Below, piece by piece: positions 540 to 38,860 of a stretch of DNA of 64,000 nucleotides (positions are counted from its first letter, which is position 1; the number at the start of each line of letters is the position of its first letter). Source of the DNA: Massilia timonae CCUG 45783 (GTDB lineage: Bacteria; Pseudomonadota; Gammaproteobacteria; Burkholderiales; Burkholderiaceae_D). The position numbers and the translations under genes are program-made. The notes under the pieces were generated by a model. It worked only from the letters and a program-made list of their open reading frames with translations, searched no databases and had not been told where the DNA came from. The stretch covers positions 1,086,789-1,150,788 of the forward strand of contig NZ_JH992923.1 of NCBI RefSeq assembly GCF_000315425.1, given 5' to 3'.

Positions 540-3500
540 CTATTTTTGGGGTTGCCCATCCTGGACGGTCATTATCTCGACGGGGACGCCGCCGCGGGTC
601 GTGCGCAAAGTGACCAGCCTTATGGGTTCCAGCGCGTTCTCGGGGCGGCCGTCGGTCGTGACCGCCAGCGCGATCGTGTTCTCGCCGTTCGGGTTCAGGA
701 TGCCCGGCGGGATGACGAAGGTGCGCTGCGGGCCGATGTGGGCGATGAACTGGCCCATGTTCCAGCCGTTGACGAAAATCAGCGCGCGGTTGTCGCGTTC
801 GGAGCGTGGCTTGTCGGTGTCGCCGAAGGCCAGGGCGAGCTGGACGTCGTGGTCGCGCGGCAGGTCGAGCTTGAATTGCGTGCGCAGCCAATAGGTGCCG
901 GCGGCAGGCGGGGCGTCGGTCGGGCGAGCGGACTGCCAGCCCTGGGACGACGCGGTCGGCAGGTGCCAGCCGGCGCGCTCGCCATACAGCCCGCCGTTGT
1001 TCATCGGGCCGCGCACGCGGTCGACCAAGTCCTCGCCGCCCTGGCGGCCCTGGATGCGCCAGGCGATCGGCGTGCCGAAGCGCTGGCCGCCACGGCTCGT
1101 CAGCGAGGCCGAGATCAGGCCGCGCGCCTCGCGATGGAAATCGTCCGCCATCAGATTCCAGTTATGGCCGTTGTTGCGCACCATGACCGCGATCATGTGC
1201 TCGCCCGGCGTGAGCGTGCCCAGGTCGAGCTTGACGCTGTCGGTCGTCTCCGGGAACGAGCGCCCGGTGTCCAGCTCGTGCTGGCCGACGAAGCGGCCGT
1301 CGATCCATACCTGGATCATGCCGGCGCCGCCGGCCCCGTAGAACAGCTCGAGCCGGCTGGCCTTCGGGTCTGAGGTGGTGAAGCGACCGCGATACCACAC
1401 GTCGCCGTGGTGGAAGCCGTAGTCGCTCATCGCCAGGGTCGGCTGCCCGCGTTCCGGCATGGTCCAGGTCTGGGCCGCCGATGGACGCCGGTCGGCCCGC
1501 ACCCAGGCGCTGTCGTCGAAGCGAGGCGCCGCCTCCAGGCTGTCCATGCGCCGGGTCCAGGCCAGGCGCGCCAGGTCCGGCACGCGCACCTCCTCCGGGC
1601 CCTTCAGGCCGGCCGCGCGCACGCTGCCGTCCAGCTGGGGCGTGAGCGCCAGCGGTTGTCCGTTGAAGCTGGCCGTCTCGAACGCCGGCCCCCAGATCTC
1701 GATGGCGCCATCCTGGTCGACATCGCCCGTCATGGCAAGCAGGCCGTCGGCGAGCCGCGCCGATCGCACCAGCGCCGGCGTCAGTTGCAAGGCGCGTCCG
1801 GCCCCGGTGTCCTGGGTCCAGAACCGCATGCTGGTCTGTTCGTCCGCCAGCAGGAGCAGCATCGGGGCGCGCCCACCACCCGAGATGCGCACCCGCGCCA
1901 GGCCTTCGTGCACGTAGTTCAGCATCAGGTCGCCCCTGGCCGCGTCCCAGCGCGACTGCACCCGGCCCGCCAGCACCTCGACCTGCGGCGCGCCGGCATA
2001 GCGCAGCACGGTCTCGCCCTCGAGGCCGTCGCGTCCGTGCAGCAGCACGATGTCGCGTTCACCGTCGCGCAGGTGCGTCTGCAGCTCGGAGGTCGAATAC
2101 ACCAGGCGCTGGCGTTCCATGTCGTAGGAGGCCAGCAGCATGCGCGCGTCCTGCCCGCGCAGAATCGAGGCGATCGTGTACTCGCCGTCGCGCGTGGCGA
2201 GCCTGACGCTGAAGCGCTCCTCGCCCTTGCCATCGAGGGGGTTGTGGGCCGCGAACACCACGTGGGCGCCCAGGCGCTTGTTGACGTTGTGGTAGACCTT
2301 GACCTTGCCGCCCGCCGGCGCCAGCGGCGGCCCCTTGTCCATCTCGGCCAGTACCGCTTCGGCGGCCTGGACGAACATGCCCTGCTGCTTGAGCGCATAG
2401 GCCTTGGGACGCAGGCCGCGGTCTTCCGCAATCGCCGCGCCGTAGTCGTACGAGGTGTAGACCACCGGACCGGCCAGCCAGCCCCACGAAGTGCCGCCGA
2501 AGGTCATGTAGACGTTGTGGATCGTGATCCGGTTGATCAGGTTCGTCCCATAGAACACCCGCTGGTAGCCCTTGCCCTGGCGCTCGGCGGTGCAGGCATA
2601 GGTGCCGTTCGAGCCCCAGTAGTCGAACCAGCCGCCGCCCAGTTCCGCCGCGAAGCCCGGCGTGCCGGGGGAAGACAGCGCACCGGCGCGCGGGCCAGGC
2701 GCGCCATGGATGCCCCAGTCGGGCGCCTTGTTGGCGCCGGCGGGGTTGGCGTGCACGTCGCAGCTGCCGCCCGGGTAGCCGTCGAAGGCATAGATGTCGG
2801 TCGGGCCGGGATTGGCCCACGCCGCGCTCGAGTCCTTCGGCGTCCAGTCGGGCAGGCGGCCGGCGGCGTTGTGGAAGAACGGCACCGTGATGCCGTCACG
2901 GCGCGCCTTGCGCGCCAGGTGCTCCATCTGGCGCACGTGCTTGGGCTCCACCTTGCCCAGTTCGTTCTCGAGCTGGTAGGCGATCACGTTGCCGCCGCCA
3001 TCGGTGACCTGGTGGCGCGCGATGATCGCGTTCACCTGGGTCATCCACTCGTCCACCGCCGCCAGGTACACCGGGTCGTCGGTGCGCGCCTCACCGCGGT
3101 TGCGGAACATCCAGCCCGGATAGCCGCCGCCGGTCAATTCCGAGTTGATGTACGGGCCGGTGCGGGCGATGACGTACAGGCCCTCCTCTTTTGCGATCTG
3201 CAGCGCGCGCTCGACGTTGCGGATGCCCGAGAAATCGTAGACCCCGGGCGCCGGCGAATGGTAGCCCCAGTCAAAATAGAAGGCCACGCCATTGAAGCCG
3301 AGCGCCTTCATCTTCTGCATCACGTCGCGCCACAGGGCTGGGTTGGGCAGGCGGAACGGGTGGATCTCGCCCGACCACACCACCACCCGCTTGCCATCGA
3401 TCTTGAGGGAATACTGATCCCAGCTCACCTTCCGTGGCGCTCCCTTGGGCGCCGACACGCCGACCAGCTCCCCGGCATCGCCCGCCAACGCGCCAAACCC

Positions 3501-4346
3501 CGACGCCATCGCCGCGGTGCCGGTCAGGCGCCGCCGTTCGCCCCAGGTGCGGCCGCCATCGAGGCTGTCGGCGTGCCATGCGCGCCGACCGGCGTCGACG
3601 CCGTACAGGCGCAGGGCCAGGCCATGACGCACCAGGGCCGCCGCCGTCACGCCGGCGCCGAGCTTGTCCAGGGTGGCCTCGACCTTCCATGGGCCGGCCA
3701 GGGAGGCGGCGCGCGCCAGCGCCAGCCGGCCGCCCTGGTGGCGCGCCACCGCCACATAGCCTTCGCCATCGAGCAGAACGGCCGCGTCAAGGTGGCCGGC
3801 CAGCCCTTCCAGCCGCCGTGGCGCCGACCAGTTGGCCAGTTGCGCGTCCGGCGCGACCATGTGGACGCCCCCGGCGTTCGCGAACACGAGCTTGAGAGTG
3901 CCGTCGCGCTCGCGCACCCAGCCGGGCTTGCCGGACTGGCCGGCGCCGCCCAGCGGGATGTCGCGCAAGAACTCCCACTGCCGCAGATCGGGCGAGCGGG
4001 CCAGTCCGATGCCGCCTGCGCCGTTCGCATACGCCAGGTAGTAGCGACCGTCGGCGTGACGCGCCAGCGCCGGATCGCGCAGGTCGCCGGCGGGCGGAGT
4101 CCAGGTCTCGGAAGCCAGCGAGGTAAAATCGGCGCCGTCGTTCGAGACCAGGATGCTCAGCGCATTGGCCGCGCCGGCCGTCAGCGCCGGCATCAGGACG
4201 ACTCGGCCATCGCTGTCGCCTGCCTTGGCGGCGTCACGCGCCGCCTGCATCCCCGAACCCTGGGGAATGCCGAGCTCCTGGGCCGAGGGCAAGCCTGCCG
4301 CGCACAGGGCGGCGCAGGCCGCCGCCATCGAGTGATACCACTTCAT
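540..4346 (-). CDS. GH35 beta-galactosidase with N-terminal GH43-like propeller
   Basis: This is a secreted glycoside hydrolase of about 1268 residues, likely releasing terminal beta-galactose from plant side chains. A signal peptide covers about residues 1-22. Residues 40-300 look like a GH43/sialidase-type beta-propeller, with RDPALARHADGRYYLAY near 90. GH35 proper starts around 306 (KVSWDQYSLKIDGKR). QLENEL near 458-463 supplies the probable acid/base Glu462, and AAELGGGWFDYWG supplies the probable nucleophile Glu568. C-terminal jelly-roll galactose-binding modules follow (FVNGWNMGQF). The ATG at 4346 was chosen because AAAGGAG lies 6 nt upstream and a signal peptide follows directly; longer readings overlap the GH43 gene. 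The gene lies 31 nt after that GH43 gene, probably in one transcript. The propeller fusion is unusual for GH35, and its propeller seems to lack the GH43 acid Glu. Confidence 0.88.
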   Translation of the reverse strand: MKWYHSMAAACAALCAAGLPSAQELGIPQGSGMQAARDAAKAGDSDGRVVLMPALTAGAANALSILVSNDGADFTSLASETWTPPAGDLRDPALARHADGRYYLAYANGAGGIGLARSPDLRQWEFLRDIPLGGAGQSGKPGWVRERDGTLKLVFANAGGVHMVAPDAQLANWSAPRRLEGLAGHLDAAVLLDGEGYVAVARHQGGRLALARAASLAGPWKVEATLDKLGAGVTAAALVRHGLALRLYGVDAGRRAWHADSLDGGRTWGERRRLTGTAAMASGFGALAGDAGELVGVSAPKGAPRKVSWDQYSLKIDGKRVVVWSGEIHPFRLPNPALWRDVMQKMKALGFNGVAFYFDWGYHSPAPGVYDFSGIRNVERALQIAKEEGLYVIARTGPYINSELTGGGYPGWMFRNRGEARTDDPVYLAAVDEWMTQVNAIIARHQVTDGGGNVIAYQLENELGKVEPKHVRQMEHLARKARRDGITVPFFHNAAGRLPDWTPKDSSAAWANPGPTDIYAFDGYPGGSCDVHANPAGANKAPDWGIHGAPGPRAGALSSPGTPGFAAELGGGWFDYWGSNGTYACTAERQGKGYQRVFYGTNLINRITIHNVYMTFGGTSWGWLAGPVVYTSYDYGAAIAEDRGLRPKAYALKQQGMFVQAAEAVLAEMDKGPPLAPAGGKVKVYHNVNKRLGAHVVFAAHNPLDGKGEERFSVRLATRDGEYTIASILRGQDARMLLASYDMERQRLVYSTSELQTHLRDGERDIVLLHGRDGLEGETVLRYAGAPQVEVLAGRVQSRWDAARGDLMLNYVHEGLARVRISGGGRAPMLLLLADEQTSMRFWTQDTGAGRALQLTPALVRSARLADGLLAMTGDVDQDGAIEIWGPAFETASFNGQPLALTPQLDGSVRAAGLKGPEEVRVPDLARLAWTRRMDSLEAAPRFDDSAWVRADRRPSAAQTWTMPERGQPTLAMSDYGFHHGDVWYRGRFTTSDPKASRLELFYGAGGAGMIQVWIDGRFVGQHELDTGRSFPETTDSVKLDLGTLTPGEHMIAVMVRNNGHNWNLMADDFHREARGLISASLTSRGGQRFGTPIAWRIQGRQGGEDLVDRVRGPMNNGGLYGERAGWHLPTASSQGWQSARPTDAPPAAGTYWLRTQFKLDLPRDHDVQLALAFGDTDKPRSERDNRALIFVNGWNMGQFIAHIGPQRTFVIPPGILNPNGENTIALAVTTDGRPENALEPIRLVTLRTTRGGVPVEIMTVQDGQPQK

Positions 4347-4377: not shown

Positions 4378-5409
4378 TCATTGCTTCGCTGCCTCCCTGT
4401 CTGCGACCGGCTCGCCGAAGTCGGGCATGCCGTCGTCGCGCCAGATGATCGCCTTCGCGCGCGTGTGGCGGTTCGGGTCGCGCAGCGGCTCGCCCACGAT
4501 GTCGCGATAGTCGCGCGCATGGTAGACCAGGATGTCGGTCTTGCCGTCCCGGCTGGTGGTAAAACTGTTGTGGCCAGGTCCATACTGGCCGGTCTTCTCG
4601 CTGCTGCGCAGGACCGGCTGCGGCGACTTGGTCCACGCGTCCGGGTCGAGCAGGTCGGCGTCCTCTTGCGCCCACAGCAGGCCGAGCGCGTAGTTGGCGT
4701 CGGTGGCGCTGGCCGAATAGGTCATCAGGACGCGGCCATGCTTGACCAGCACCGCCGGCGCTTCGTTGACCCAGTGGCCGATCCTTTCCCAGGCGTGCTC
4801 GGGACGCGTCAGCAGCACGGCCGGCTGGCGGATCGCCAGCGGACCGTCCATCCGCGCCAGGTAGATGTTGGTGCCCTTGCTGCCGTCCGGCGCGACCTGG
4901 GTCCATGAGAGGTAGCGCTGGCCGCGGTGCGCAAAGGTGGTGGCGTCGAGCGCGAAGCTCTCCCAGCCGGTCTTGAGCTGGCCGCGCTCGATCCATTCGC
5001 CCTCGAACGGATTCTCCGCGCTGTTCTCCAGCACGTAGAGCCGGATCTCCCACACCTTGTCGGCGCGGCCGGCGCTGAAGTACAGATACCACTTGCCGTC
5101 GATGCGGTGCAGCTCGGGCGCCCAGATGTGGGCGCCCATCTCGCCGCTGGCGTGCTTGCGCCAGACGACCCGGGCCTCGGCCTTCCCGAGTTCGGCGAGG
5201 CTGCGCGCGCGGCGCAGCTCGATGCGGTCGTACTCGGGCACCGTGGCCGTGAAATAGTACCAGCCGTCCGGATGCAGGATGACGTGGGGATCGGCGCGCT
5301 GGCGCACCAGGGGGTTGGCGAAGCCGGCATCATCGTCGGATGCGGCCGGGGCCTGGCAGCCGGCCAGCGCCAGCAGCATGCACAGGATTGGCAATGCATG
5401 GGATTTCAT
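4378..5409 (-). CDS. GH43 glycosidase lipoprotein (probable alpha-L-arabinofuranosidase type)
   Basis: This is a 343-residue lipoprotein of glycoside hydrolase family 43. The lipobox LAGC places the acylated Cys at 18, so the enzyme is probably anchored to a membrane facing the periplasm or surface. The three GH43 catalytic positions can be read: base Asp40 (RADPHVI), pKa-modulating Asp155 (ALDATTF) and acid Glu216 (NEAPAVL). The fold markers HIWAPELHRIDGKWYLYF and YGPGHNSFT are also typical. Its layout resembles the single-domain arabinofuranosidase/xylosidase-like GH43 proteins; substrate cannot be settled from sequence alone. The start at 5409 has GAGAGGA upstream. It follows the TonB receptor gene, with an intrinsic terminator in the gap, and precedes the GH35 gene. 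Confidence 0.88.
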   Translation of the reverse strand: MKSHALPILCMLLALAGCQAPAASDDDAGFANPLVRQRADPHVILHPDGWYYFTATVPEYDRIELRRARSLAELGKAEARVVWRKHASGEMGAHIWAPELHRIDGKWYLYFSAGRADKVWEIRLYVLENSAENPFEGEWIERGQLKTGWESFALDATTFAHRGQRYLSWTQVAPDGSKGTNIYLARMDGPLAIRQPAVLLTRPEHAWERIGHWVNEAPAVLVKHGRVLMTYSASATDANYALGLLWAQEDADLLDPDAWTKSPQPVLRSSEKTGQYGPGHNSFTTSRDGKTDILVYHARDYRDIVGEPLRDPNRHTRAKAIIWRDDGMPDFGEPVADREAAKQ

Positions 5410-5478: not shown

Positions 5479-8400
5479 TCAGATCTTGACGCCCAGGGTC
5501 AGGAAGTAGCGGCGTCCAGACCAGGCCAGTTCGTTGATCCGGAACGGGTCGCCCGCATCGCTGCGCTGCACTTCGTCGGTCAGGTTCTTGCCCTCCAGCG
5601 CGATCGACACGCGGTCATTGAAGCGCCACTGGATCTTCGCGTCCAGGAAGCCGGTCTTTTCCTGGAATACCGGGTTGCCCGAGACGTCGTTGGCGCCGGT
5701 GAAGAAGCGGTCGCGGTAGGTATAGGCCAGGCGCGCATTGACCGGGCCCTGGTCATACCACAGCGAGAGGTTGTAGGCGGTCTTCGACATGCCGGGATAT
5801 GGCAGCACGGTGTCGTCGAGCAGGTTCAGGCGCTCCTTGCCCGGCGCGTACTTGTAATCCATGCGGGTGTAGTTGGCGTCGATGCCGAAGCCGCTCAGCC
5901 AGCCCGGCAGGAACGTCAGCGCGGTGCGGCCGGCCAGCTCGATGCCCTTGGTGGTGGCGCCCTCGCCGTTGACGGCTTGGGTGACGTTGAAGCGCTGGCC
6001 GTTCTTGAACAGGTCGACGTCACGGGTGAGCACGCGCTCGATCACGTAGCTCGAGATGTCCTTCTCGAACACGGCCAGCGACAGCTGGCTGTCCGGCGTC
6101 GGGTAGTACTCGAGGCTGAAGTCGGTGTTGGTCGAGCGGTAGGGCTTCAGGTCCGGATTGCCGGCGGTGCAGGTGTCGACGCCTTCGCCGCCGAACTGTG
6201 GGTTGCCGCTGCCCAGGACGCAGGTGGCGTTCGGCGCCAGCAGGTCCATGCGCGGGCGCGCCATCGCCTTGGCCCAGCCGACACGGGCAAGGAACTTGTT
6301 GTCGATGAACCAGAAGGCGCCATTGAAGCTCGGCAGCCAGTCGTGGTAGGTGTTGTCGACCGTGACGACCCCGTTGCTCATGACGACGTCGGTGTAGGTC
6401 GTGGAGCCGGGGGAGGTTTCGGTACGCACCGAATAGCGCTGCAGGCCCGAGGACTTGTTGTCGGTGCGGGTATATCGCATGCCGATATTGCCGTCGACCT
6501 CGTAGCCGAACAACTGCGTGGCCCAGTCCAGGCGCAGATAGGTGGCGGCGATCTTTTCTTCCACGCCGAACGCCGGGATCTGCGGATAGACGTTGCCGTC
6601 GCTGCCGGGCGAGTCATACAGGTAGTCGTGGTTGAAGGCCGACGTGTCGAAGAACGGCAAGGCATTCGCGAACACCGGCGACATCCAGCCGGACGGCATG
6701 CCCTTGACGTCCCCCAGGCCGCCGAAGAAGGTGCCGGGCGAACGGCCGCTGACGGCGCTGATCAGCTGCGCCATTTGCGCGGCGTTGATGTAGCGGGTCG
6801 AATAGCCCGAATTGATGAAGGACTGGGCGTCGTTCGGACGCTGCGCGCCGCCGGTATAGAACGGATCGTAGATCGCGGTCTGGTTGATGTTGGCGCCGCG
6901 CACATTGATGTCGTCGGCGGTCGACGCCGGGTTGGCGCCAGTGCTGGCGAGGTAGCCGCCGCCGTTGTACTGGGTCGATTCGGCCTTGCGCGCCTGGGCG
7001 CCGAACCACAGCTTGGTGAAGAACGGCGTCGTCAATCGATAGCGCAGGTCGACCTTGGCCTGGTCTTCCTGGTTCTTGGTCTCGCTCGGGCGGTACTGGA
7101 GCTGCGCCTGGACGTAGGAGGCCGGATCATCCGGGCTGTAACCGGACGGGAAGGTAAAGCGCGGCAGGCCCTGGTCGTCCAGGGTCACTTTCAGCCCCGG
7201 CGCATTCTGGGTCAGCGCGATGTTGTTGCTGTCGCTGTCGTAGTGCGAGCGCGAGGTGCCGAACAGGCCCTCGACCTCGAGGCGGTCGCGCTTGTAGAGG
7301 AAGCCCGAGGTGGCATAGCGCGAATCGATGTCGAGCTGGAAGTCGCGCGCCGAGGTGCCGAAGGCGCCCTGCCCGCCCCGGCCAGCCGCGTACAGGCAGT
7401 TGCCGACGGTGTAGGAGGTGACGTGGTGGTTCGTGATCACCATATCGTCCGGCGTCGTGGCCGCCGGCACGCACGTGCCGACCGTGGTCGGCACGCCGGT
7501 GGCCGGGTTGTAGACCGGCGCCTGGCCGGCGTTCGCCAGGCGATTCGCATCCGGGAAGTCGGTGCCGAAGTTACGGTCGTTCAGGCGCTGACGCTGGGTA
7601 TTGGCCTGGTAGCTCACCCAGGCGTTGAAGTTCTTGCTGAACTCGTACTGCGCAGTGACCTCGCCCGACGAACGCTTGTGGTCGCGGGTCCAGATGCCGT
7701 AGCGCGCAATGCCCGGCGAGTAGTCGAACCACTGGCGCCGGCAGGCATCCGCCTGGGCGGAGCTCAAGCCCGAGGTGGCGCAGCTGGCCGCATCGCCGAT
7801 CGCGGCCAGGCGCGGATCGGTGCTGACCACGGTCTTCTCGGGCGACTTGTCCCAGTCCTGGATGAAGCGCCACGAGGTGTTGCGCGCGTAGTCATTGCGG
7901 GTGTGAACCTCGTCGTAGACGAAGTTGGCCATCAGGCCCAGCTTGCCGCCCAGGTACTTGTCGGCCATGTACAGGTTGCCGCGCGGCTGGACGCCGCCGC
8001 GCGAAGTCGCGTGTTCGGCCGAGATGCTGGTGCCGATGGTCGGCTCCTTGAAGTCGAGCGGCTTGCGCGTCTTGATCGACACCGAGCCGCCGACGCCGCC
8101 TTCGGTCATGTCCGCGGTGATGCCCTTGTAAACGTCGATCGAGCCGATCAGCTCCGACGCCAGCTCGCGCAGCTCGGCGCCGCGGCCCGCGGTGCCGCTC
8201 GTGTTCAGCACCGACATGCCGTTGATCTCGATGCGGTTCAGGTCCGGCTCGACGCCGCGGATCGAGATCTGCGAGCCTTCGCCGAAATCGCGCGACAGCT
8301 GCACGCCGGTCACGCGCGACAAGGCTTCGCCCACGTTCTTGTCGGGGAACTGGCCGATGTCTTCGGCCACGATCGAATCGGACACGGTGCTGGCGCGCAG

Positions 8401-8710: not shown

Positions 8711-8792
8711 CATTCTATGTGCGTACAGTCGCCTGATTCCATATGGCATTGAAAGAATCATGCACCTGATCGAAAGGGGCGCATTCGACCTG

Positions 8793-12987: not shown

Positions 12988-13063
12988 CGCTGCATGGCGC
13001 AGTGTGGCCAATCGCGGCTACCATGGCGGCCAGTGTCGGCGCGCCGAGGTCGGACCGATCGCT

Positions 13064-13582: not shown

Positions 13583-13638
13583 CCGATTCCATCCTTTTTT
13601 TGGAATATGGCTACATTGACTTCGCTGTAGCAACCAGG

Positions 13639-13905: not shown

Positions 13906-13914
13906 TGCAGGAAC

Positions 13915-14487: not shown

Positions 14488-14509
14488 CCCGCATTCCTCC
14501 TGAGCATGC

Positions 14510-14609
14510 ACGCCCCACGCCTGACAAGACGGCCATCGAGATTATCGCCGACGTTGATTCCCAAGAAGCACTCGATCAAATCATCATCGACGGTGAGTTC
14601 AAACTTCTG
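14510..14609 (-). pseudogene. Vestigial start of a paralogue of the gene at 13064
   Basis: Between the two Imm26-type genes one minus frame reads KFELTVDDDLIECF and INVGDNLDGRLV with no start codon. This resembles NFELIVD ... INLGDNLYARFVG near the start of the protein at 13064-13582. It then runs out of register into the ribosome-binding region of the next gene. It looks like a relic of a duplicated immunity gene. Confidence 0.5.
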
Positions 14610-25071: not shown

Positions 25072-25078
25072 GCGCACG

Positions 25079-30344: not shown

Positions 30345-30459
30345 GCGGCGTCTCCGATATTTCAGTGCGATGGATTATGCGGCCGTGACCAGCGCCTGGG
30401 GCTTCCTGACCAGAAATAATCAAGCAATGGATCGATTCATGTGCGAGCGGCCTGCCACT

Positions 30460-32811
30460 TCACCGCGTCGACGCCGGCGCGCCGGCAAGCGCGCCACGCA
30501 GGGCGCCCGCCTGCGCCGTGGCGTCGACGCCGGCGCGCGGTCCGTTCACGCGCACCAGCACGCTGGCGATCCCGGCCTCGGTCGCGACGACCTGACTACC
30601 GACGATCTCGGCGCCTTCGATGCCGGAGAACGCAACCTGTGCGCCGCTCGAAGGCACCGTAGTGCCATCGGCGTCGCGCAGGCGCGCGCGCAGGAATACC
30701 AGGTCGCCCTCGGCCACAGGCACGCCGAGGTCGTCGAGTTCCAGGGCCAGCGTCGTCGCCTGCCGGGGCGTGCGCACCCGGTGCTCGGCCACGACCCGCC
30801 CGCCCGCATAGGCCAGCGCCACGAGTTCGCCGGGCGCGTAGCCGCCGGTGTCGAATTCGAGCGGCGGATGCGCCAGGCGCGGATGGACTGTTGAGGGCGC
30901 GCTTCGTTGGCGGCCGATCGGCCTGCCGTTCAGGCGCAGCTCGACTTCCTCGGCATTGCTGAACACACGGACGCGCGGATTCGAGCCAGCCTGCCAATAG
31001 CTGGCGATGAAGACCATCGGGCCGCCGCCCCAGCGCGGCGAGCTTTCCTCCCTGCTCCGCTGGGAGCGGAAGAATTCAGCCGCGAACTTCGGCACGCGTT
31101 CGATATTCAGGAGGCCCGATTCTTCCAGGTCCGGCGCATAGCCGCGCGCATAATCGAACATCACCCAGTAGCCGTCGGCGAAGGCTGGCGTGGCGGCATT
31201 GTCGTCGTGGGCCTCGGCCACGTTGCGGGCCTGCTGCAGCAACCGCGTTTCGCCGCTGCCCAGCGCCTGGCGGCTCGAACGGTCGGCCGGCTTGAGGTCG
31301 GCCCAGGCGTCCTGGTTCAGGCCCGCGTTCATCGCATAGTATTCCCAGTCGCCATACTCGGACACGATCAGCGGCTTGGCCGGCGCCCTGTGCTTGCTGC
31401 CGATCCTGTGCTGGCGCGCCTGCAGGTAGAGGTCATAGGTCTGCGGCACCCAGCCGGCGGACCAGGCCTGGTCGCCCGGATATTCCTGGTGCACGGTGGC
31501 GTGCAGCGCCTGCACCAGCGGGTCCGGCATGCCGGTCTCGTTGAGCGAGCATTCCCAGGCCACGACACTGGGATGGTTGCGGTCGCGCCGGATCAGGTCG
31601 GCGCAGGTGCGCACCACCTGGCGCGCGAAGGCCGGGTCGGGATTGTGGAACTGCCAGCCGGGGATGGCCGGCAAGACCAGCAAGCCCAGTTCGTCGGCCG
31701 CCGCCATGAAGGCCGGCGACTGCGGATAATGCGACAGGCGCACGAAGTCGAAGCCATAGCGCTTGATCAGCAGCGCATCGCGCGCGTCGGCCTGCGCCGA
31801 CAGCGCATAGCCGACGTAGGGGTATTCCTGGTGGCGGTTGACGCCGCGCAGGCGCACGGGCTCGCCGTTGAGCAGCAGGCGCCCGTCCTCGAAGGCCAGG
31901 CGGCGCACGCCGATGCGGGTCGCGACCATGTCTTCGCTGCCGGCGGCAACGACCCTCGTCTCCAGCCGGTACAGGTTGGGCGAGCGCGGCGACCACAGTC
32001 TCGGCGCGCGCAGGGTGAGCGGCAGCGTGACGTGGCGGCGTTCGCCCGCCGCCAGGCGCAGCTGCTGCTCGGCCTGCGCCACCTGCCTGCCGTCCCATGC
32101 CAGCGTGTGGCGCACGGTGACCGCCTGCGCGCTCCGCGACGTGTTGCTGACTTCGGCCTTGACCTCGACCCGCGCCTCGTCCCTGGCGACGCGCGGATAG
32201 GTCACGAACACCCCGCCGCCGCCCGGCGTGGCCGAGAGCATTTCGTCCGTGACGTGCACGGCCGGCTTGATCACGAGCCGCACGTCGCGGTAGATGCCGC
32301 CGTGCTGGATGTAGTCGAGCTGCTTGAGCGGCTTGGGGCCGGTGATCGGGTTGTCCTCGTTATTGGCGCGCACCACGAGCTCGTTCGCCCCCGTATCACG
32401 CAGAACGTCGGTCACGTCGAAGGCGAACGGCAGGTAACCGCCCAGGTGCTGTCCCAGGTGGCGGCCGTTCAGCCAGACGTCGGCCACGTTCATCACGCCC
32501 TCGAAACGCAGGATGGCGCGCTCGCCCGGCCGCAGCCTGACGTCCAGGCGCTTCCTGTAGAACACCGTGCCCTGCCACGGCGCCGTGGGCACGCGCGGCT
32601 CGATGCGCGCCGCGTGCGGGAGGTTCACCTCGGTCCAGGCGCCGTTTGGCACCTGGTCCGCGCTGGCGAGCTGGCCGCCCTCGTCGCGGAAGAACTGCCA
32701 GGAGGCGTTCAGGTTCAGCTCCGCCGCCTGTGCCGGCGCGACGGGCGCCATCGTCAGCACGAGCAGGGCCGCACGAGCCGCGCCAAACAAGATCATGGAA
32801 ATGTTCATCAT
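30460..32811 (-). CDS. GH2 glycosidase (probable beta-galactosidase), secreted
   Basis: This 783-residue family GH2 enzyme has a signal peptide at about 1-30 (MAPVAPAQA). The sandwich domain contains VFYRKRLDVRLRPGE and MNVADVWLNGRHLGQHLGGY. The barrel contains RLRGVNRHQEYPYVGYALS. The acid/base Glu is in CSLNETGM and the nucleophile is in LIVSEYGDW, so both catalytic residues are present. C-terminal Ig-like domains end the protein, including FSNAEEVELRLNGRPIG and a bacterial-Ig-like VRVNG segment. The ATG at 32811 overlaps the stop of the preceding GH43 gene (ATGA), so translation is coupled. Beta-galactosidase is preferred from the NRHQE motif and the neighbours; beta-glucuronidase is a weaker alternative. 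Confidence 0.9.
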   Translation of the reverse strand: MMNISMILFGAARAALLVLTMAPVAPAQAAELNLNASWQFFRDEGGQLASADQVPNGAWTEVNLPHAARIEPRVPTAPWQGTVFYRKRLDVRLRPGERAILRFEGVMNVADVWLNGRHLGQHLGGYLPFAFDVTDVLRDTGANELVVRANNEDNPITGPKPLKQLDYIQHGGIYRDVRLVIKPAVHVTDEMLSATPGGGGVFVTYPRVARDEARVEVKAEVSNTSRSAQAVTVRHTLAWDGRQVAQAEQQLRLAAGERRHVTLPLTLRAPRLWSPRSPNLYRLETRVVAAGSEDMVATRIGVRRLAFEDGRLLLNGEPVRLRGVNRHQEYPYVGYALSAQADARDALLIKRYGFDFVRLSHYPQSPAFMAAADELGLLVLPAIPGWQFHNPDPAFARQVVRTCADLIRRDRNHPSVVAWECSLNETGMPDPLVQALHATVHQEYPGDQAWSAGWVPQTYDLYLQARQHRIGSKHRAPAKPLIVSEYGDWEYYAMNAGLNQDAWADLKPADRSSRQALGSGETRLLQQARNVAEAHDDNAATPAFADGYWVMFDYARGYAPDLEESGLLNIERVPKFAAEFFRSQRSREESSPRWGGGPMVFIASYWQAGSNPRVRVFSNAEEVELRLNGRPIGRQRSAPSTVHPRLAHPPLEFDTGGYAPGELVALAYAGGRVVAEHRVRTPRQATTLALELDDLGVPVAEGDLVFLRARLRDADGTTVPSSGAQVAFSGIEGAEIVGSQVVATEAGIASVLVRVNGPRAGVDATAQAGALRGALAGAPASTR

Positions 32812-34319
32812 TCGCGCACCAGGCTGAAGTCGTCGAGGGCGAGCCAATCGCCATCCTTCCCTTCCGAGTAGACGCCGATCTGCACGCTGCCGGTAGTGAC
32901 CTGGATGCCGGACAGCGTCACCTCGGTCCACTGCGCCAACTTGTCCGGCAGGGAGCGGGCGATCTCTGCGCCGCCGTGGCCCGACGCGTACAGGCGCGCC
33001 ACGCGCTGGCCGCCGCCGCTTTTCACCCAGGCCCTGAGCGTGTAGCGGCCGTTCGGCAGCGTGACGTTCTGGATCGCGCTGCCCATCGTCTGTCCCGCAT
33101 GGCGCAGGCTCAAGGCCCAGCGCCCGGTGCGACCATCGGGCGCGTTCATGAACGGCGCATCGCCCTTGATGCTGGTCCAGCTGCTGATCCATCCGGCGAC
33201 GCTCGTCTGGCGCACCCTGTCCGCCTCGAAGCCGGGGTTGAGCAGGTAATTATTGCCTTTGCCGACGGCCCAGGCGCCGCGCGCGGCGTCCAGCGTGAAT
33301 TCGCTGAGCGAGTTGAAGCGCGGCGCCGTGCCCTCGAACGACAGCGGCGCCCAGACATGGTAGCCAAGCCCGTTCCCGGCAAAATTGCTCCAGCGGTCAC
33401 CCGCATACAGGACCGTGGCGCCGGCGCTGCCCTGGACCGGGATGAAGAAGCCGTTCTGCGACACGTGAGAAAAATCCGCCTCGGTGCCCTCGATGATCCG
33501 CTCCGGCGTATACGGGCCGGTGATGTTCGGCGACGTCATGTAGAAGCTGCGCGAGGCGTTCCAGCCGTGCAGGTCGGACGAGCAGAAATAGTACAGGCCC
33601 CGGTGCTTGAACATCGCATTGCCTTCGCGCCCGCCGGCCGGCGCGCTGTGGATGTTCGTGGCCGCGTCGACCTGCAGGAAGTCGGACGGCCGCAGCGGCG
33701 CCACGTACAACTGGCGCCGGTCGCCGTTGCTGCTGAAGATCAGGTAAGGCTGGCCATCGTCGTCGGTGAACACGGTCTGGTCGCCCGAGGTCGGAGTGGC
33801 GACGTTCTCGATGCTCGCCTGCAGGCGTGCGAACACGAAGGGGCCGTTGGGACTGTCGCTGGTGGCGAACAGCACGCCGCCGCCCGTGCCCTTGCTGCTG
33901 TACTGGGTGACCAGCACGTACTTGCCGGTCGCCTTGTGGTACACCACGCCCATGCGTCCCAGCCAGGCCTTCGGATCGTGCAGCGCGCCCAGGCCCTGCG
34001 GCGTGAGAACGTCGCCTTCGAAGGTCCAGTTCACCAGGTCGGTCGACGAATAGGCGGTGACCGCGCTGAAGTGCGGCTGAGCGAACGCCTGTCCGGGCGC
34101 GTCGGCGTAGCGCACCGCTTCGGCATACTTCACGCCATACCAGTAGTACTTCGCGCCGACCTTGAGCATGCCGCCGCCCTGCGAGTAGATCGGCGTGCCG
34201 GCGCTGTCCTTCCAGAAGACGCCATTACGGATGGTGGTTTCGGCGGCGACTGCCTGGTGCGTCGCGCCAGCAAGGGCCAGGCAGGCGATCCAGCCGCTGC
34301 GGCGGAAATGCTCGATCAT
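32808..34319 (-). CDS. GH43 subfamily-24-like exo-beta-1,3-galactanase with C-terminal CBM
   Basis: This is a 503-residue secreted enzyme (signal peptide about 1-26). The start GTPIYSQGGGMLKVGAKYYWYG resembles exo-beta-1,3-galactanases of GH43 subfamily 24, where AHGGG replaces the usual catalytic-base Asp. SGDQTVFTDDDGQPYLIFSS gives the second Asp, and GREGNAMFKHRGLYYFCSSDL gives the probable acid Glu. From about 350 (NNYLLNPGFEADRV) a jelly-roll carbohydrate-binding domain runs to the end. Such enzymes strip galactose from the backbone of type II arabinogalactan. GGAG lies 5 nt before the ATG at 34319. It heads a minus-strand operon with GH2, PL26 and GH28 genes and diverges from the tandem GH43 gene. 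Confidence 0.8.
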   Translation of the reverse strand: MIEHFRRSGWIACLALAGATHQAVAAETTIRNGVFWKDSAGTPIYSQGGGMLKVGAKYYWYGVKYAEAVRYADAPGQAFAQPHFSAVTAYSSTDLVNWTFEGDVLTPQGLGALHDPKAWLGRMGVVYHKATGKYVLVTQYSSKGTGGGVLFATSDSPNGPFVFARLQASIENVATPTSGDQTVFTDDDGQPYLIFSSNGDRRQLYVAPLRPSDFLQVDAATNIHSAPAGGREGNAMFKHRGLYYFCSSDLHGWNASRSFYMTSPNITGPYTPERIIEGTEADFSHVSQNGFFIPVQGSAGATVLYAGDRWSNFAGNGLGYHVWAPLSFEGTAPRFNSLSEFTLDAARGAWAVGKGNNYLLNPGFEADRVRQTSVAGWISSWTSIKGDAPFMNAPDGRTGRWALSLRHAGQTMGSAIQNVTLPNGRYTLRAWVKSGGGQRVARLYASGHGGAEIARSLPDKLAQWTEVTLSGIQVTTGSVQIGVYSEGKDGDWLALDDFSLVRE

Positions 34320-34513: not shown

Positions 34514-36460
34514 ATGCATCGTCTCGTCTCATCGATCATCGCATTCGCGGCCACCGCCCTGTTCCCGGTGCAGGCGCAGGACGTGGCGCCCGCGCCCGCG
34601 CTCGAGGGTTTCACCGCCGACCCGTCGATCCGGGTGTTCGGCGACACGTATTATCTTTACCCGACGTCCGACAAGCCGAACTGGATGACCACCGACTTCT
34701 CGGTCTGGTCCTCGAAGGACCTCGTCAAGTGGAAGAAGGAGCGGATGGTGCTGGACGTCGCCAACGATGTGAAGTGGGCGAATATCAAGGCCTGGGCGCC
34801 CGACGCCATCGAGCGCAACGGCACGTATTATTTCTACTTCAGCGCCGACCACAAGATCGGCGTGGCCACCGCCAAATCGCCGCGCGGACCGTTCGTCGAC
34901 GCCCTCGGCGCGCCGCTGCTGGTGCGCACCAGCACGATGACGACGAATACGATCGATCCCTACCCCTTCATCGACGACGACGGCCAGGCCTATCTGTACT
35001 GGGGCAACGGCATCGAGGCCAACGCCTACAAGCTCAAGCCGGACATGGTCAGCGTCGAAGGCGAGGTGCATCGCATCCCGATGAAGGATTTCCGCGAAGG
35101 CGTGGTGGTGTTCAAGCGCCAGGGCAAGTATTACTTCATGTGGTCGATCGACGACGCGCGCAGCCCACATTACCGGGTCGGCTGGGGCACGGCGGATTCG
35201 CCATTGGGACCGGTGAAAGCGGCGACGAAGAACTTCATCGTCCTGCAAAAGAACGGCGCGGCGGTCGGCACCGCCCACCACAGCGTGGTCCAGGTGCCCG
35301 GCACCGACCGCTGGTATGTGGCCTACCACCGCCATGCCATCCCGGACGGCAACGGCTACCAGCGCCAGACCGTGCTGGCGAAGATGAGCTTCGACGCCGA
35401 CGGCAACATCCTGCCGATGGACCCGATGCAACCGGCCTTCCAGCCTGGCGATGTCGGCGAGCCGATCGTCGACGGCAAGGGCTTGAACGGCGGCGTGTCC
35501 GCGGGCCGCCCCAACTACCTGCTCGCCCACTTCACCAGCGAGACCGCCGACGGCGAGCAGATCCACTTTGCCACCAGCCAGGACGGCTATCTTTGGTCCG
35601 ACCTGAACGGCTCGAAGCCCATCCTGCGCAGCACGACGGGCGAACAGGGCGTGCGCGATCCGGCGATCGTGCGCTCGCCGCGGGGCGACAAGTTCTGGAT
35701 TCTCGCCACCGATCTGCGCATCGCCAACGGCAAGGGCTGGCAAGCCGCCATGCACAAGGGCAGCACGAAACTGATGATCTGGGAATCGACCAACCTGGTC
35801 GACTGGTCGGCGCCGCGCCTGGTGGACGTGGCCGGCGCCATTCCCGATGCCGGCTGCGCCTGGGCGCCCGAAGCCATCTACGACGAGCGCAGCGGCGACT
35901 ACCTCGTCTACTGGGCCACGATTTCGCCGGCCAACGGCGTCACCAAGCCGCGCATCTATTATTCACGCACGCGCGACTTCGTCCGCTTCACGCCGGCCAC
36001 GCTGTATATCGACCGTCCCGGCGCGCATGGGCTGATCGACACCCAGATCGTCAAGATCGACGATCCGCGCTCACGGTATCGCTACGTCCGCGCTTCCGGC
36101 GATGGCCAGCTGACGCTGGAGGGCGCCAATGAACTCCTGGGCCAGTGGGACATCCTGGGCGACCTGCGGCCGCTCGGCCTGACCGGCAAGGACGTCGAAG
36201 GGCCGATCCTGTTCAGGGTCGCGCAGAGCGGCGAATGGGCCATGTGGGTCGACCAGTACGCGCGCAAGGCCGGCTACCTGGCGCTGACCAGCGACGACCT
36301 GACGCGGCCAGAGCGCTTGCGGCGCGCGGACCCGGCCAGGATCGACCATGGCCACAGCAAGAAGCGCCACGGCGCTATCCTGAATATCAGCAGCGACGAA
36401 TACCGGCGCCTCATGGCCCGCTGGCCTGTTGCCGCGCCACGCACAGCGAGCCCGCCATGA
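34514..36460 (+). CDS. Tandem GH43-GH43 two-domain glycosidase, secreted
   Basis: This 648-residue protein has two five-bladed GH43-type propellers in one chain after a signal peptide (about 1-22). Domain 1 (about 28-325) shows FTADPSIRVFGDTYYLYPTS, IDPYPFIDDDGQAYLYWGNG and DFREGVVVFKRQGKYYFMWS. Together these carry all three acidic positions. Domain 2 (about 345-640) shows GVRDPAIVRSP, LIDTQIVKIDD and DVEGPILFRVA, so it too keeps the acidic set. Two active sites are therefore plausible. The likely activity is removal of arabinose or galactose from side chains. Its stop overlaps the start of the next GH43 gene (ATGA). It diverges from the galactanase operon, so a shared control region probably lies at 34320-34513. 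Confidence 0.85.
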   Translation: MHRLVSSIIAFAATALFPVQAQDVAPAPALEGFTADPSIRVFGDTYYLYPTSDKPNWMTTDFSVWSSKDLVKWKKERMVLDVANDVKWANIKAWAPDAIERNGTYYFYFSADHKIGVATAKSPRGPFVDALGAPLLVRTSTMTTNTIDPYPFIDDDGQAYLYWGNGIEANAYKLKPDMVSVEGEVHRIPMKDFREGVVVFKRQGKYYFMWSIDDARSPHYRVGWGTADSPLGPVKAATKNFIVLQKNGAAVGTAHHSVVQVPGTDRWYVAYHRHAIPDGNGYQRQTVLAKMSFDADGNILPMDPMQPAFQPGDVGEPIVDGKGLNGGVSAGRPNYLLAHFTSETADGEQIHFATSQDGYLWSDLNGSKPILRSTTGEQGVRDPAIVRSPRGDKFWILATDLRIANGKGWQAAMHKGSTKLMIWESTNLVDWSAPRLVDVAGAIPDAGCAWAPEAIYDERSGDYLVYWATISPANGVTKPRIYYSRTRDFVRFTPATLYIDRPGAHGLIDTQIVKIDDPRSRYRYVRASGDGQLTLEGANELLGQWDILGDLRPLGLTGKDVEGPILFRVAQSGEWAMWVDQYARKAGYLALTSDDLTRPERLRRADPARIDHGHSKKRHGAILNISSDEYRRLMARWPVAAPRTASPP

Positions 36461-37407
36461 TGCGCCACCTGCCGCCCGCCCTCCTCTTCTGCATCGCCGC
36501 CGGCGCACATGCCGCCAACCCGATCGTGACCGACATCTTCACCGCCGACCCGGCCGTGGTGGTCGACGGCAAGCGCCTCTACCTGTACACGGGCCGCGAC
36601 GAAGCCAGTCCGGGCGAGACGACCTACAGGATGAACGAGTGGCGCGTGTTCTCGACCTGCGATATGCGCAACTGGACCGATCACGGCGTCGCCGCCATGG
36701 TCAAGACCTTCGCCTGGGCCAAGGCCGATGCGTTTGCCGCCGACGTCGTCAGGCACAAGGGAAAATATTACCTGTATGCGCCGGTCAAGCACGCCACGAT
36801 CCCCGGCTTCGCGATCGGCGTCGGCGTGTCGGACACGCCCACCGGACCGTTCAGGGATGCGCGCGGCTCGGCCCTGGTGACCAACGACATGACGCGCGAA
36901 ACGCCGAACGGCTGGGACGACATCGACCCGGCCGTGTTCGTGGACGACGACGGCCAGGCCTATATGTACTTCGGAAACAAGGTGCTCAAGTACGTCAGGC
37001 TCAAGCCGAACATGATCGAGCTCGATGGCACGATCCGGACCGTGGGCCTGTTCAATTTCGAAGAAGCGCCCTGGCTGCACAAGCGCGACGGGGTGTACTA
37101 CCTGAGCTATGCGAGCGGCCTGCCCGAGGTGATCGCCTATGCGACGGGCCCGAGCCCGACCGGCCCCTGGACCTATCGCGGCGTGATCATGGACAAGAAC
37201 AAGGTGACGCACACGATCCACCAGGCGTTCGCCGACTTCAACGGCAAATCCTATGTGTTCTACCATAACGAGATGGTATCGAACGCCGATTACCGCCGTT
37301 CGGTCGCGGTCGAGGAATTCAGCTACGGGAAGGACGGCGCGATTCCCCGCATCGCCCAGACCCGCGCCGGCCCGGCGGCCAATCCGGCGCCGGGCTGCAA
37401 CAACTAG
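36457..37407 (+). CDS. GH43 glycosidase (arabinofuranosidase/xylosidase-like), secreted
   Basis: This is a 316-residue single-domain GH43 enzyme with a signal peptide ending near AGAHA (about residue 19). The base Asp is in FTADPAVVVDGKRLYLYTG (about residue 31) and the modulating Asp in DDIDPAVFVDDDGQAYMYFG. The acid Glu is in NFEEAPWLHKRDGVYYLSYAS (near 203). The sequence resembles the arabinoxylan or arabinan-debranching GH43 subgroups, which remove arabinofuranose. The ATG at 36457 overlaps the stop codon of the tandem GH43 gene, so the two are translationally coupled. It ends 1 nt before the convergent aldehyde dehydrogenase gene. Confidence 0.88.
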   Translation: MMRHLPPALLFCIAAGAHAANPIVTDIFTADPAVVVDGKRLYLYTGRDEASPGETTYRMNEWRVFSTCDMRNWTDHGVAAMVKTFAWAKADAFAADVVRHKGKYYLYAPVKHATIPGFAIGVGVSDTPTGPFRDARGSALVTNDMTRETPNGWDDIDPAVFVDDDGQAYMYFGNKVLKYVRLKPNMIELDGTIRTVGLFNFEEAPWLHKRDGVYYLSYASGLPEVIAYATGPSPTGPWTYRGVIMDKNKVTHTIHQAFADFNGKSYVFYHNEMVSNADYRRSVAVEEFSYGKDGAIPRIAQTRAGPAANPAPGCNN

Positions 37408-37408
37408 A

Positions 37409-38860
37409 TCACACTCCGACCATCGAAACGGCCTTGGTGTTGAGGTAGGATTCCAGCGCCTCCGGACCGCCTTCGGAACCGTAGCCCGAATCCTTGACGC
37501 CGCCGAACGGCAGTTCGGCGCTTGGCGTGGCCGGCTGGTTGATCCACAGCATGCCGACTTCGACGCGGTTCATCAGGAGCTGGGCGTTCTTGATCGAGCT
37601 GGTGAAGGCATAGCCGGCCAGGCCGTACGGCAGGCGGTTGGCCTCCTGGATCGCATCCTCGAGGCTGTCGAAGCCGCGGATCGCCGCCACCGGGCCGAAC
37701 GGCTCGTCGTTGAACACGCTCGCCTCCAGGGGCACGTCGGCCAGGATGGTCGGCGCGAAGAAGTTGCCGGCGTCGCCGACGCGCGCGCCGCCGGTGGCGA
37801 CCACCGCGCCCTTGGCGCGCGCGTCGTCCACCAGCTGCGACATCGCGGTCAGGCGGCGTGGATTGGCCAGCGGCCCGAGCGTGGTGCCTTCCTGCAGGCC
37901 GTCACCGAGCTTGAGGCTTTCGGCATGCTTGACCAGCGCGCGGGTAAACTCGTCCTTGACCGCGTTGTGCACCAGGAAGCGGGTCGGCGAGATGCACACC
38001 TGGCCCGCATTGCGGAACTTGGCGCCGCCGGCGGCCTTGACGGCCAGCGCGACGTCGGCGTCGGCCGCGACGATCACCGGCGCATGGCCGCCCAATTCCA
38101 TGGTCACGCGCTTCATGTGGGCGCCCGCCAGGGCGGCCAGCTGCTTGCCGACCGGGGTCGAGCCGGTGAAGGTGACCTTGCGGATGACCGGGTGCGGGAT
38201 CAGGTAGCCGGAGATTTCGGCCGGGTCGCCGAACACCAGGCCGACCACGCCCGGCGGCACGCCGGCGTCGACGAAGCACTGGAACAGCGCGGCCGGCGAC
38301 GCCGGGGTTTCTTCCGGCGCCTTGCACAGGAAGGAGCAGCCGGTGGCCAGCGCCGCGGCCAGCTTGCGCACGACCTGGTTGATCGGGAAGTTCCACGGCG
38401 TGAAGGCGGCGACCGGGCCGACCGGTTCCTTCAGCACCAACTGCTGGGCGGCCGGATTGCGCGATGGGACGATGCGGCCATACACGCGCATGCCTTCTGC
38501 GGCGAACCAGTCGATGATCTCGGCGCCGGCCAAGGCTTCCATCTTCGCTTCGGCCAGCGGCTTGCCCTGTTCCTGGGTCAGGAGGCGCGCGATGTCGCCG
38601 GCGCGCTCGCGCAGCAGGTTGGCGGCGCGGCGCATGGTGGCGGCGCGCTCGGCGGCGGGAACGAAGCGCCAGGCCTCGAAACCTTTCTGGGCGGCGGCCA
38701 GCGCGCGGTCCAGGTCGGCGATGGCGGCATGGGCCACGTTGCCGATCGGCTGTCCGGTGGCCGGGTTGACCACGGGAATGGTCTTGCCGCCGGTGGCGTC
38801 GACCCATTCGTTGGCGATCAGGAGGCGGATGTCGGGATAGCTGGAGGTCGTCATGAGCAT
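37409..38860 (-). CDS. NAD(P)-dependent aldehyde dehydrogenase (succinate- or ketoglutarate-semialdehyde type)
   Basis: This 483-residue cytoplasmic enzyme belongs to the GabD-like branch of aldehyde dehydrogenases. The substrate-pocket stretch [20 protein letters not shown] is present. The general-base Glu is in [12 protein letters not shown], the catalytic Cys in [14 protein letters not shown], and the end motif is [17 protein letters not shown]. Family knowledge allows succinate semialdehyde, glutarate semialdehyde or alpha-ketoglutarate semialdehyde as substrate. The last is the final intermediate of oxidative arabinose and galacturonate catabolism, which would suit this locus, but the neighbours of that pathway are not in the window. 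The start at 38860 has GGA 5 nt upstream; an ATG two codons later is possible. Confidence 0.88.

Follow-up and report, generated by a model that had tools for sequence, protein, structure and literature searches.

Which glycan does a cluster of carbohydrate-active genes serve, do its parts form one system, and what controls it? These questions are raised by the left part of a 64,000-nucleotide stretch of Massilia timonae CCUG 45783 (contig NZ_JH992923.1, positions 1,086,789 to 1,150,788), hereafter the window. A first-pass annotation had read the cluster as a single, split system for rhamnogalacturonan I (RG-I) and type II arabinogalactan, with uptake through a TonB-dependent receptor; these substrates fit the nearest characterised relatives of the enzymes as well as the synteny. 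The locus is real, was correctly listed and is functionally plausible and ordinary in kind. We consider it quite probable that it represents the receptor-and-debranching half of a Massilia RG-I island controlled by RhaR, to which an arabinogalactan module has been added and which is eroding in this lineage.

Open reading frames (ORFs) were chosen by GC content at codon positions, and 30 of the 35, those up to 52.8 kb, were scanned with Pfam; the gene starts of GH35, GH2, GH43_24 and the last GH43 were trimmed by us. Every family named in the first-pass annotation was recovered at its place, between 540 and 37407, in these independently called ORFs. Absent from that annotation were the C-terminal module of GH43_24, the propeller domain of GH35, the uronate dehydrogenase remnant, the inserted island and the operator-like motif, all described below. 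The elements on which our interpretation turns are the following:

5479..8658, minus strand: TBDR1, TonB-dependent receptor of the TIGR01782 type (PF00593, PF07715; TIGR01782 562 bits, cut-off 310)
8751..8773, minus strand: operator-like motif TCGATCAGGTGCATGATTCTTTC, about 90 bp upstream of TBDR1, kept in nine genomes
27567..30344, minus strand: PL26 exo-rhamnogalacturonan lyase, predicted (PF21346, PF21345, PF19501; PDB 5xq3, PcRGLX, 3.7e-210)
30413..30435, minus strand: operator-like motif, 69 bp upstream of PL26 (23.7 bits, non-training, one-mismatch core match)

The retained genes are colinear in M. arenae at 88-98% protein identity, and all 15 genes compared with this sole comparison genome, two of them flanking, have dN/dS of 0.09-0.23, so that the gene set cannot be attributed to chance. 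The window genome (G000) is Massilia-like; its PL26 protein is 95% identical to that of M. arenae and 85% identical to that of M. aurea, and it has 72 TonB-receptor matches.

The other half of the island lies elsewhere in the same genome. In M. arenae, the rhamnose (rha) catabolic genes, a PL11 endo-lyase, a second PL26 and a GH88-family hydrolase are contiguous with the locus, whereas here they are on another contig, C5. Within 1-28 kb of C5, we found genes for sugar uptake and control (FGGY kinase, ABC sugar transporter with a rhamnose-type binding protein, TIGR02637, and DeoR regulator), for catabolism (bifunctional RhaEW, NF006189; RhaI, TIGR02629) and, on the glycan side, for two GDSL proteins, the GH88-family hydrolase, a GH43-like protein, the second PL26, a DUF4861 protein and PL11. 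Thus, the extent first given to the locus holds for the genes in the window but leaves out PL11, the second PL26, the GH88-family hydrolase and the rha operon. C5 takes up the M. arenae order beyond GH35: window position 511 and C5 position 403 match two points of a single M. arenae contig that are separated by about 280 bases. Either a true rearrangement or the joining of contigs would fit this, and we claim neither. The second PL26 (C5:19208-21877 in the window genome, and also in G212 and G224) includes one TGA within the match in all three genomes; in L114 it is an open frame of 893 aa, and the TGA-containing match may simply run past the stop.

The DeoR regulator encoded beside the rha catabolic genes is the candidate RhaR; its M. 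arenae orthologue is 98% identical. An alignment of upstream regions places TCGATCAGNTNNNTGATTCTTTC about 90 bp ahead of the TBDR1 start codon in 9 of 9 genomes, and a position weight matrix (PWM) was built from the 6 distinct sites among the 9 aligned. The motif, ATCA-N6-TGAT, is an inverted repeat in which, by eye, GAT recurs at a 12-bp offset. Its exact core occurs at 3 sites in 6.1 Mb: upstream of TBDR1, between rhaR and rhaEW, and at a GDSL-GH88 unit near PL11. Allowing up to one mismatch yields 13 genomic sites, compared with 2 for the reversed pattern: five in the window and C5 stretches, two before other outer-membrane receptors, one beside a transposase gene and five inside ORFs. The PL26 site is the second-best PWM match in the window (the next scores 16.0 bits), and the same place scores 19.4 in M. 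arenae and 16.8 in M. aurea. Four matches on C5 reach 20 bits, where 0.025 would be expected; the space between rhaR and rhaEW contains three of them, and the fourth is upstream of the GDSL-GH88 unit. The shared operator is thus found at TBDR1, PL26, rhaR/rhaEW and the GDSL-GH88 unit.

The pattern extends to relatives. Across 24 sequences (927 kb), 54 matches reach 20 bits, 46 of them non-training and 8 training sites, against 0.33 expected from 3 simulations per sequence; G257, G242 and G210 each contributed several of these sequences, and a 20-kb piece of C5 represents the window genome itself. Nearly half of the non-training matches (22 of 46) lie within 450 bp of a mapped gene start, and no match was found in 851 kb from 40 loci of other lineages (L026-L065), a control set of similar size and unmatched composition. 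Ten sequences have rhaR in view (eight from Massilia, plus Comam and Burk). All 8 of the Massilia ones have a site in the rhaR-rhaEW gap or immediately ahead of rhaR; it scores 19.3 bits in G171 and at least 20 in the other seven. Five relatives carry the motif in the promoter common to GH35 and the sodium/solute symporter gene (SSF), and M. cavernae carries it before SSF. Weaker sites precede GH115 (19.9 bits in BSC265, 18.3 in G243, 14.2 in G257) and GH43_24 of M. aurea (16.6), and TBDR1-like genes in three non-Massilia sequences have sites of 22.0, 21.8 and 19.5 bits upstream. In our reading, TBDR1 and PL26 have an operator in common, ATCA-N6-TGATTNTTTC, on which the DeoR-family protein encoded next to rhaEW probably acts to control both.

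Several observations weigh against this regulatory proposal or narrow its reach. Only two transcription units of the window locus carry a clear motif; the promoters of GH43_24 (3.6 bits), GH43b, GH115 and the flanking aldehyde dehydrogenase gene (ALDH) in the window genome have no clear one, and the SSF site is degenerate (6.2 bits by PWM). The PL26 site alone is not decisive: simulated windows contain 0.1 matches of at least 20 bits each, and 1 of 40 simulations reached 26, so that the assignment rests also on its position and on the M. arenae and M. aurea sites, given that simulations yield occasional high scores. The PL26 promoters of BSC265, 9I, G257, G243 and M. cavernae reach only 4.6-8.1 bits, and because the relatives are mutually related, the motif matches are not independent. 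Furthermore, GH43_24 is not beside TBDR1 in 3 of its 7 genomes. Finally, 3 of the remaining 8 matches in the genome fall between genes, and since two of these precede genes for other TonB-type outer-membrane proteins, the motif may not be rhamnose-specific. As a separate observation, these one-mismatch motifs (L134:3480 and L135:7474) lie 131-190 bp upstream of two TonB-type genes, one of which is divergent from a LacI-type regulator gene.

The latter sites are part of what lends some plausibility to a different view, namely, that the motif serves a different regulator or belongs to the promoters of outer-membrane carbohydrate receptors in general, and that RhaR is uninvolved. In the same direction, the motif, which looks closer to an inverted repeat, appears to depart from the tandem symmetry that PMC3870299 reports for DeoR-type RhaR, and the rhaR sites of Comam and Burk are weak (11.5 and 12.9 bits), yet the TBDR1-like genes there score 22.0 and 19.5. 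However, all three exact sites in the genome fall in rha/RG-I stretches, a cluster of three sites separates rhaR from rhaEW, and 7 of 8 Massilia sequences have a rhaR site of at least 20 bits. We regard this alternative as a minority possibility and retain control by RhaR as the preferred reading.

What the regulated genes would act on follows from the enzymes around the receptor and the lyase, which, from left to right, are:

540..4346, minus strand: GH35 beta-galactosidase with an N-terminal GH43-like beta-propeller at about residues 45-300 (PF01301 5.2e-80; PDB 3og2/5ifp over 304-1232)
4378..5409, minus strand: GH43a arabinofuranosidase, beside the receptor (PF04616; PDB 9nxj, 3akf)
10213..12987, plus strand: GH115 glucuronidase, nearest to the arabinogalactan-active BtGH115A (PF15979 1.6e-120; PDB 5by3 567 bits, next 398)
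22294..23964, plus strand: SSF sodium/solute symporter, probable sugar uptake (PF00474 4.1e-58; 98% to M. arenae)
23983..25071, plus strand: galT, galactose-1-phosphate uridylyltransferase (PF01087, PF02744)
25046..26245, plus strand: galK, galactokinase (PF10509, PF00288, PF08544)
26249..27547, minus strand: GH28, rhamnogalacturonidase-like (PF00295; NF049899 350 bits, cut-off 650; polygalacturonase models lower)
30460..32811, minus strand: GH2, beta-galactosidase-like (PF02836/02837/00703; GalA/GalB models below cut-off)
32808..34319, minus strand: GH43_24-type exo-beta-1,3-galactanase with a C-terminal binding-module match (PDB 3vsf 3.8e-33, 7bys 1.6e-29)
34514..36460, plus strand: GH43b, two-domain arabinofuranosidase, GH43_34-like plus GH43_22-like (PDB 3qz4 1.7e-61; NF052546, BAD1527 type)
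36445..37407, plus strand: GH43c arabinofuranosidase/xylosidase (PDB 3qed 3.7e-101)

The backbone enzymes point to RG-I. The window PL26, with three PcRGLX domains above cut-off and a near full-length match to PDB PcRGLX (aligned over 46-915), is a predicted exo-rhamnogalacturonan lyase. For GH28, the best NCBIfam model is that of the BT4153 rhamnogalacturonidase, and since its score falls below the equivalog cut-off, we call the protein rhamnogalacturonidase-like only. PL26 proteins from Asticcacaulis, an alphaproteobacterium (L013-L020), are 62-67% identical to the window PL26, whereas the second PL26 of the window genome is only 53% identical, a similarity that suggests PL26 transfer between classes.

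The side-chain enzymes point to arabinan and arabinogalactan. The best PDB matches of GH43_24, 3vsf, 7bys/7byv/7byx and 6eug, score 105-118 bits, compared with 40-43 bits for other GH43 enzymes (5a8c, 4nov), which bears out the original subfamily-24-like call; 7bys is a galactan 1,3-beta-galactosidase, and 3vsf, although the entry itself is named ricin B lectin, we take to be a 1,3-galactanase. The C-terminus of GH43_24 matches 2xom at residues 354-503, a module presumably of the beta-galactan-binding family CBM61; such a module on this enzyme could couple type I and type II galactan. The matches of GH43a, 9nxj and 3akf, are arabinofuranosidases, and we assume the exo-alpha-1,5 type known for 3akf; 3qef, the sister entry of the GH43c match 3qed, is titled arabinan-specific alpha-1,2-arabinofuranosidase. 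The first half of GH43b matches 3qz4, which we believe to be BT_3675, an identity that a literature search did not confirm, and the second half matches the alpha-arabinofuranosidase model NF052546 at 237 bits, below its cut-off of 500, so that the four other GH43 domains counted at first in three genes are all accounted for. From these matches, we infer the subfamily names GH43_34 and GH43_22; BAD_1527 is a GH43_22 enzyme according to PMC8939339. GH115 scores 567 bits against BtGH115A and at most 398 against five other GH115 proteins, as pairwise scores rather than a tree. According to PMC9063842 (2022), no other characterised GH115 enzyme than BtGH115A acts on arabinogalactan, and BtGH115A does not act on glucuronate linked to xylan, although that paper questions the linkage.

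The GH35 protein adds a fusion that is kept in ten Massilia orthologues and has no family match: its N-terminal domain of about 300 residues found no match in Pfam or in a PDB sequence search. AlphaFold2, using the ten orthologues, predicts a beta-propeller (pLDDT 81.5) that Foldseek matches to 7bys (E 2.7e-9), the top structures including Pc1,3Gal43A and lectins at TM of about 0.5. Because one putative catalytic position differs, by eye, among the ten orthologues, a binding role appears likelier than catalysis in this modelled domain.

How these genes travel together was assessed in 62 genus genomes (cut-offs: E<=1e-100 for TBDR1 and PL26, E<=1e-30 for GH43_24; in tblastn listings for M. arenae and relatives, pieces below 8-10% of the query and weaker overlapping matches were removed before counting). 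Relatives of TBDR1 occur in 16 of 62 genomes, PL26 in 25, nine of them at 73% identity or more, and GH43_24 in 7. In 7 of the 9 genomes with PL26 at 73% or more, no more than 25 kb separate it from TBDR1, the exceptions being G210 (different contigs) and G242 (no TBDR1 match); for GH43_24, the same holds in 4 of its 7. GH43a is near TBDR1 in 13 of the 15 fetched TBDR1-bearing genomes (not in G251 and G171; the sixteenth, G254, was excluded from this count); in M. cavernae, GH43a (L091:19280-20220, continuing in the adjoining stretch) appears as two overlapping tblastn pieces, possibly a frameshift. A core of TBDR1, arabinofuranosidase, GH35, symporter and PL26 thus recurs in several Massilia, and these counts suggest that the receptor/RG-I core is the older part and that the arabinogalactan module joined it at the level of a clade. 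The claim of one system is only partly right: the recurring receptor-PL26 core speaks in its favour, whereas the rarity of GH43_24, its distance from TBDR1 in part of the genomes and its motif-poor promoter speak against it.

The same counts can be read the other way, as a locus mainly for type II arabinogalactan or arabinan side chains, with the RG-I backbone enzymes as passengers and an arabino- or galacto-oligosaccharide as the receptor ligand. TBDR1, GH43a, GH35, SSF, galT, galK, GH43_24 and GH2 are kept in the window as well as in M. arenae, M. aurea and G224, the relative with the most similar receptor (97%). In the 55-kb stretch fetched from G224, by contrast, PL26, GH43b and the uronate dehydrogenase gene udh are fragments and GH28, GH43c, GH115 and a second GH2 (GH2_2) were not found; GH115, GH43c and GH2_2 were likewise not found in the 55 kb fetched from M. 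aurea. The most constant neighbour of TBDR1 is GH43a rather than PL26, and GH115 is nearest to an arabinogalactan-active enzyme. Against these points stand the promoter motif that TBDR1 has in common with the rhamnose operon and the proximity of PL26 to TBDR1 in most genomes with the same PL26 type. We find this reading conceivable but doubtful, and prefer RG-I with an added arabinogalactan module.

Is the locus still working? Comparison with M. arenae yields an intact colinear locus, and hence the synteny evidence that the first-pass annotation had proposed as a check, with breakpoints mapped. There, the order is ALDH, GH43c, GH43b, GH43_24, GH2, TBDR2, PL26, GH28, galK, galT, SSF, GH115, udh, GH2_2, TBDR1, GH43a, GH35, with the same genes intact. 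In the window, the changes are:

2..475, plus strand: transposase integrase-core (rve) fragment at the left window edge (Pfam rve PF00665 2.8e-20)
8856..9576, minus strand: remnant of the second GH2 (GH2_2), C-terminus plus short N-terminus; intact 986-aa copy in M. arenae
9875..10202, plus strand: uronate dehydrogenase-like (udh) remnant; the intact 269-aa M. arenae copy matches PDB 3rft at 2.6e-72
12994..22120, minus strand: inserted type VI secretion system (T6SS) island, about 9.1 kb, between GH115 and SSF (Pfam, NCBIfam; not at the M. arenae site)
14599-15294: Imm26-type gene in the T6SS island
15333-19607: PAAR-Rhs in the T6SS island
20089-21990: VgrG in the T6SS island
22121..22143, plus strand: degenerate version of the motif, retained at the island edge as a conserved block ahead of SSF (four-genome alignment)

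By blastn against M. arenae, GH2_2 has lost 2 kb internally, with small gaps besides, and the "broken GH2" of the first-pass annotation (8856-9464), together with the short N-terminal piece, is what is left of it; about 470 bp of udh are deleted; and a 3.7-kb deletion removed TBDR2 from between GH2 and PL26. A search of the whole window genome for TBDR2 gave no orthologue, the best match at the threshold used being 43%. Positions 1-510 are foreign relative to M. arenae, homology beginning at 511; the rve fragment in this segment is presumably of the IS3 type.

The insertion measures 9165 bp by blastn and replaces 140 bp; taking the block at 22121 as part of the ancestral sequence reduces it to about 9.1 kb. 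A search of the window that allowed up to 3 mismatches returned no further copy of that block. The island contains VgrG, PAAR-Rhs and three further genes, one of the Imm26 type downstream and two with no family match, and the genome has three TssK (PF05936) matches. Downstream of the PAAR-Rhs gene are low-GC genes (13064-15294; 0.55 at 14-16 kb), probably the variable effector/immunity end of the island. Of the 61 other genus genomes, 3 have similar DNA (6-7 kb at 76%), though in different places; a fourth has a 3-kb match at 69%, and the remaining genomes have short matches. PADLOC returned nothing for four island proteins, and a consensus scan of the island region gave about as many promoters and terminators as shuffled sequence (1 versus 1.5 and 5 versus 4.9). 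The order VgrG, PAAR-Rhs, Imm26-type gene is that of VgrG-PAAR-Rhs effector islands, although here it sits inside a carbohydrate locus, a position it does not occupy in M. arenae, M. aurea or G224. The break that had been called a split is therefore real, but the island that causes it had gone unrecognised, and the idea of a polysaccharide utilization locus in two operons gives way to an insertion and deletion history.

This history might be taken to mean that the locus is dead in this lineage, inactivated by the island and the deletions: two genes are remnants, one receptor is gone and some 9 kb lie in the middle of the cluster. Yet all other genes are open and have low dN/dS, SSF keeps its conserved upstream block, and a udh paralogue (61%) is open on C5. 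Since most of the divergence may predate the insertion, dN/dS is only moderate evidence on this point; even so, we judge a dead locus unlikely, and erosion is the best reading. That xylan is the main target, on the grounds that GH115 and GH43 include xylan enzymes and that several PDB matches are named xylosidases or xylanases, we reject as highly improbable, given the nearness of GH115 to an enzyme reported inactive on xylan-linked glucuronate, the lack of any GH10 or GH11 family among the 30 scanned gene calls and, to our knowledge, no role of PL26, GH28 or GH43_24 in xylan.

Proteobacterial carbohydrate utilization loci containing TonB-dependent receptors (CUT loci) combine a TonB receptor with carbohydrate enzymes in the absence of SusD. 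The present locus conforms to this type, with receptor, hydrolases and an inner-membrane sugar transporter clustered and conserved across species, and differs in its composite RG-I/arabinogalactan content and internal T6SS island. A SusC/SusD pair is not indicated: no SusD family was found among the 30 scanned gene calls, and the receptor is of the TIGR01782 type. With the arabinogalactan and RG-I loci of Bacteroides thetaiotaomicron, it shares GH43_24, the BtGH115A-type GH115, a rhamnogalacturonidase-like GH28, TonB-linked uptake and, if 3qz4 is indeed BT_3675, the GH43_34-like arabinofuranosidase; unlike them, it has a sodium symporter with galTK, no SusD and no endo-galactanase family among the scanned gene calls, and probable DeoR control in place of hybrid two-component systems. 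The type II arabinogalactan enzymes of Bifidobacterium longum include an exo-beta-1,3-galactanase, as here, but are Gram-positive surface enzymes that come with no receptor or RG-I lyases. The two-domain GH43_22/GH43_34 arabinofuranosidase of B. longum, a type that acts on arabinogalactan protein, has its counterpart in GH43b (PMC8939339), where the domain order appears reversed, GH43_34-like first, if 3qz4 is what we take it to be. GH115 and GH43_34 also take part in arabinogalactan use by Maribacter, according to PMC11036162. In the available sections of PMC3870299, rhamnose regulons are described for 55 genomes, some with DeoR-type RhaR, and rhamnose oligosaccharide genes are co-regulated in Thermotogales and Actinomycetales; rhaR beside the ABC rhamnose transporter, kinase, RhaI and RhaEW is a shared arrangement, while those sections list lineages without betaproteobacteria and name no TonB receptor or PL26 as a target. 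Among open-licence PMC papers, our literature search found none describing such a locus in Massilia or Oxalobacteraceae and none on T6SS islands inside such carbohydrate loci.

The substrates, enzyme locations, RhaR binding and rhamnose induction that we infer can be combined as follows. PL11, encoded on C5, would release RG-I fragments, and TBDR1 would import decorated RG-I or arabinan/galactan oligosaccharides. In the periplasm, GH43a, GH43b and GH43c may strip arabinose and GH35 and GH2 galactose, PL26 and GH28 would shorten the RG-I backbone from its ends, and GH43_24 with GH115 would trim type II arabinogalactan decorations. Galactose would then enter through SSF and pass via GalK and GalT into the Leloir pathway, and rhamnose through the ABC system, the kinase, RhaI and RhaEW, with RhaR tying receptor and lyase to rhamnose.

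To the right, the locus is bordered by a gene of doubtful membership, given that M. aurea has no copy in its fetched 55-kb stretch:

37409..39025, minus strand: alpha-ketoglutaric semialdehyde dehydrogenase-like (ALDH), right flank (PDB 9zh8 845 bits, 5x5t 843 bits)

These nearest PDB entries are an aldehyde dehydrogenase and a ketoglutaric semialdehyde dehydrogenase. Farther out, 41188-46569 encodes a 1793-aa hybrid histidine kinase with eight HAMP_2 stretches, a GAF domain and three receiver stretches, adjoining a GGDEF/EAL protein; 50614-52825 encodes EutB and EutC (ethanolamine ammonia-lyase), whose reading frames overlap in the ORF call; and two minus-strand ORFs of exactly 767 aa each (56121-58424 and 59356-61659) flank an opposite 420-aa ORF.

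Taken further, our results raise a broader proposition that we hold to be evenly poised: throughout Massilia, and possibly in other Burkholderiales as well, one rhamnose-sensing DeoR regulator would connect the rha operon with the receptor and PL26 and, in several relatives, with the promoters of SSF/GH35 and GH115, the arabinogalactan module having been added in one clade, with parts being lost and a T6SS island lodged inside. If true, betaproteobacteria would have an RG-I uptake regulon that is so far undescribed. What is new here is the insertion and deletion history together with a predicted rhamnose regulon that includes the receptor, the likely entry point. The four genomes form a series that shows modules coming together into a polysaccharide locus and the locus later eroding, and in which an island encoding a contact weapon landed in the locus and spared the conserved block upstream of the symporter. 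For RG-I use in these bacteria, one operator and one regulator would make up a testable regulatory code.

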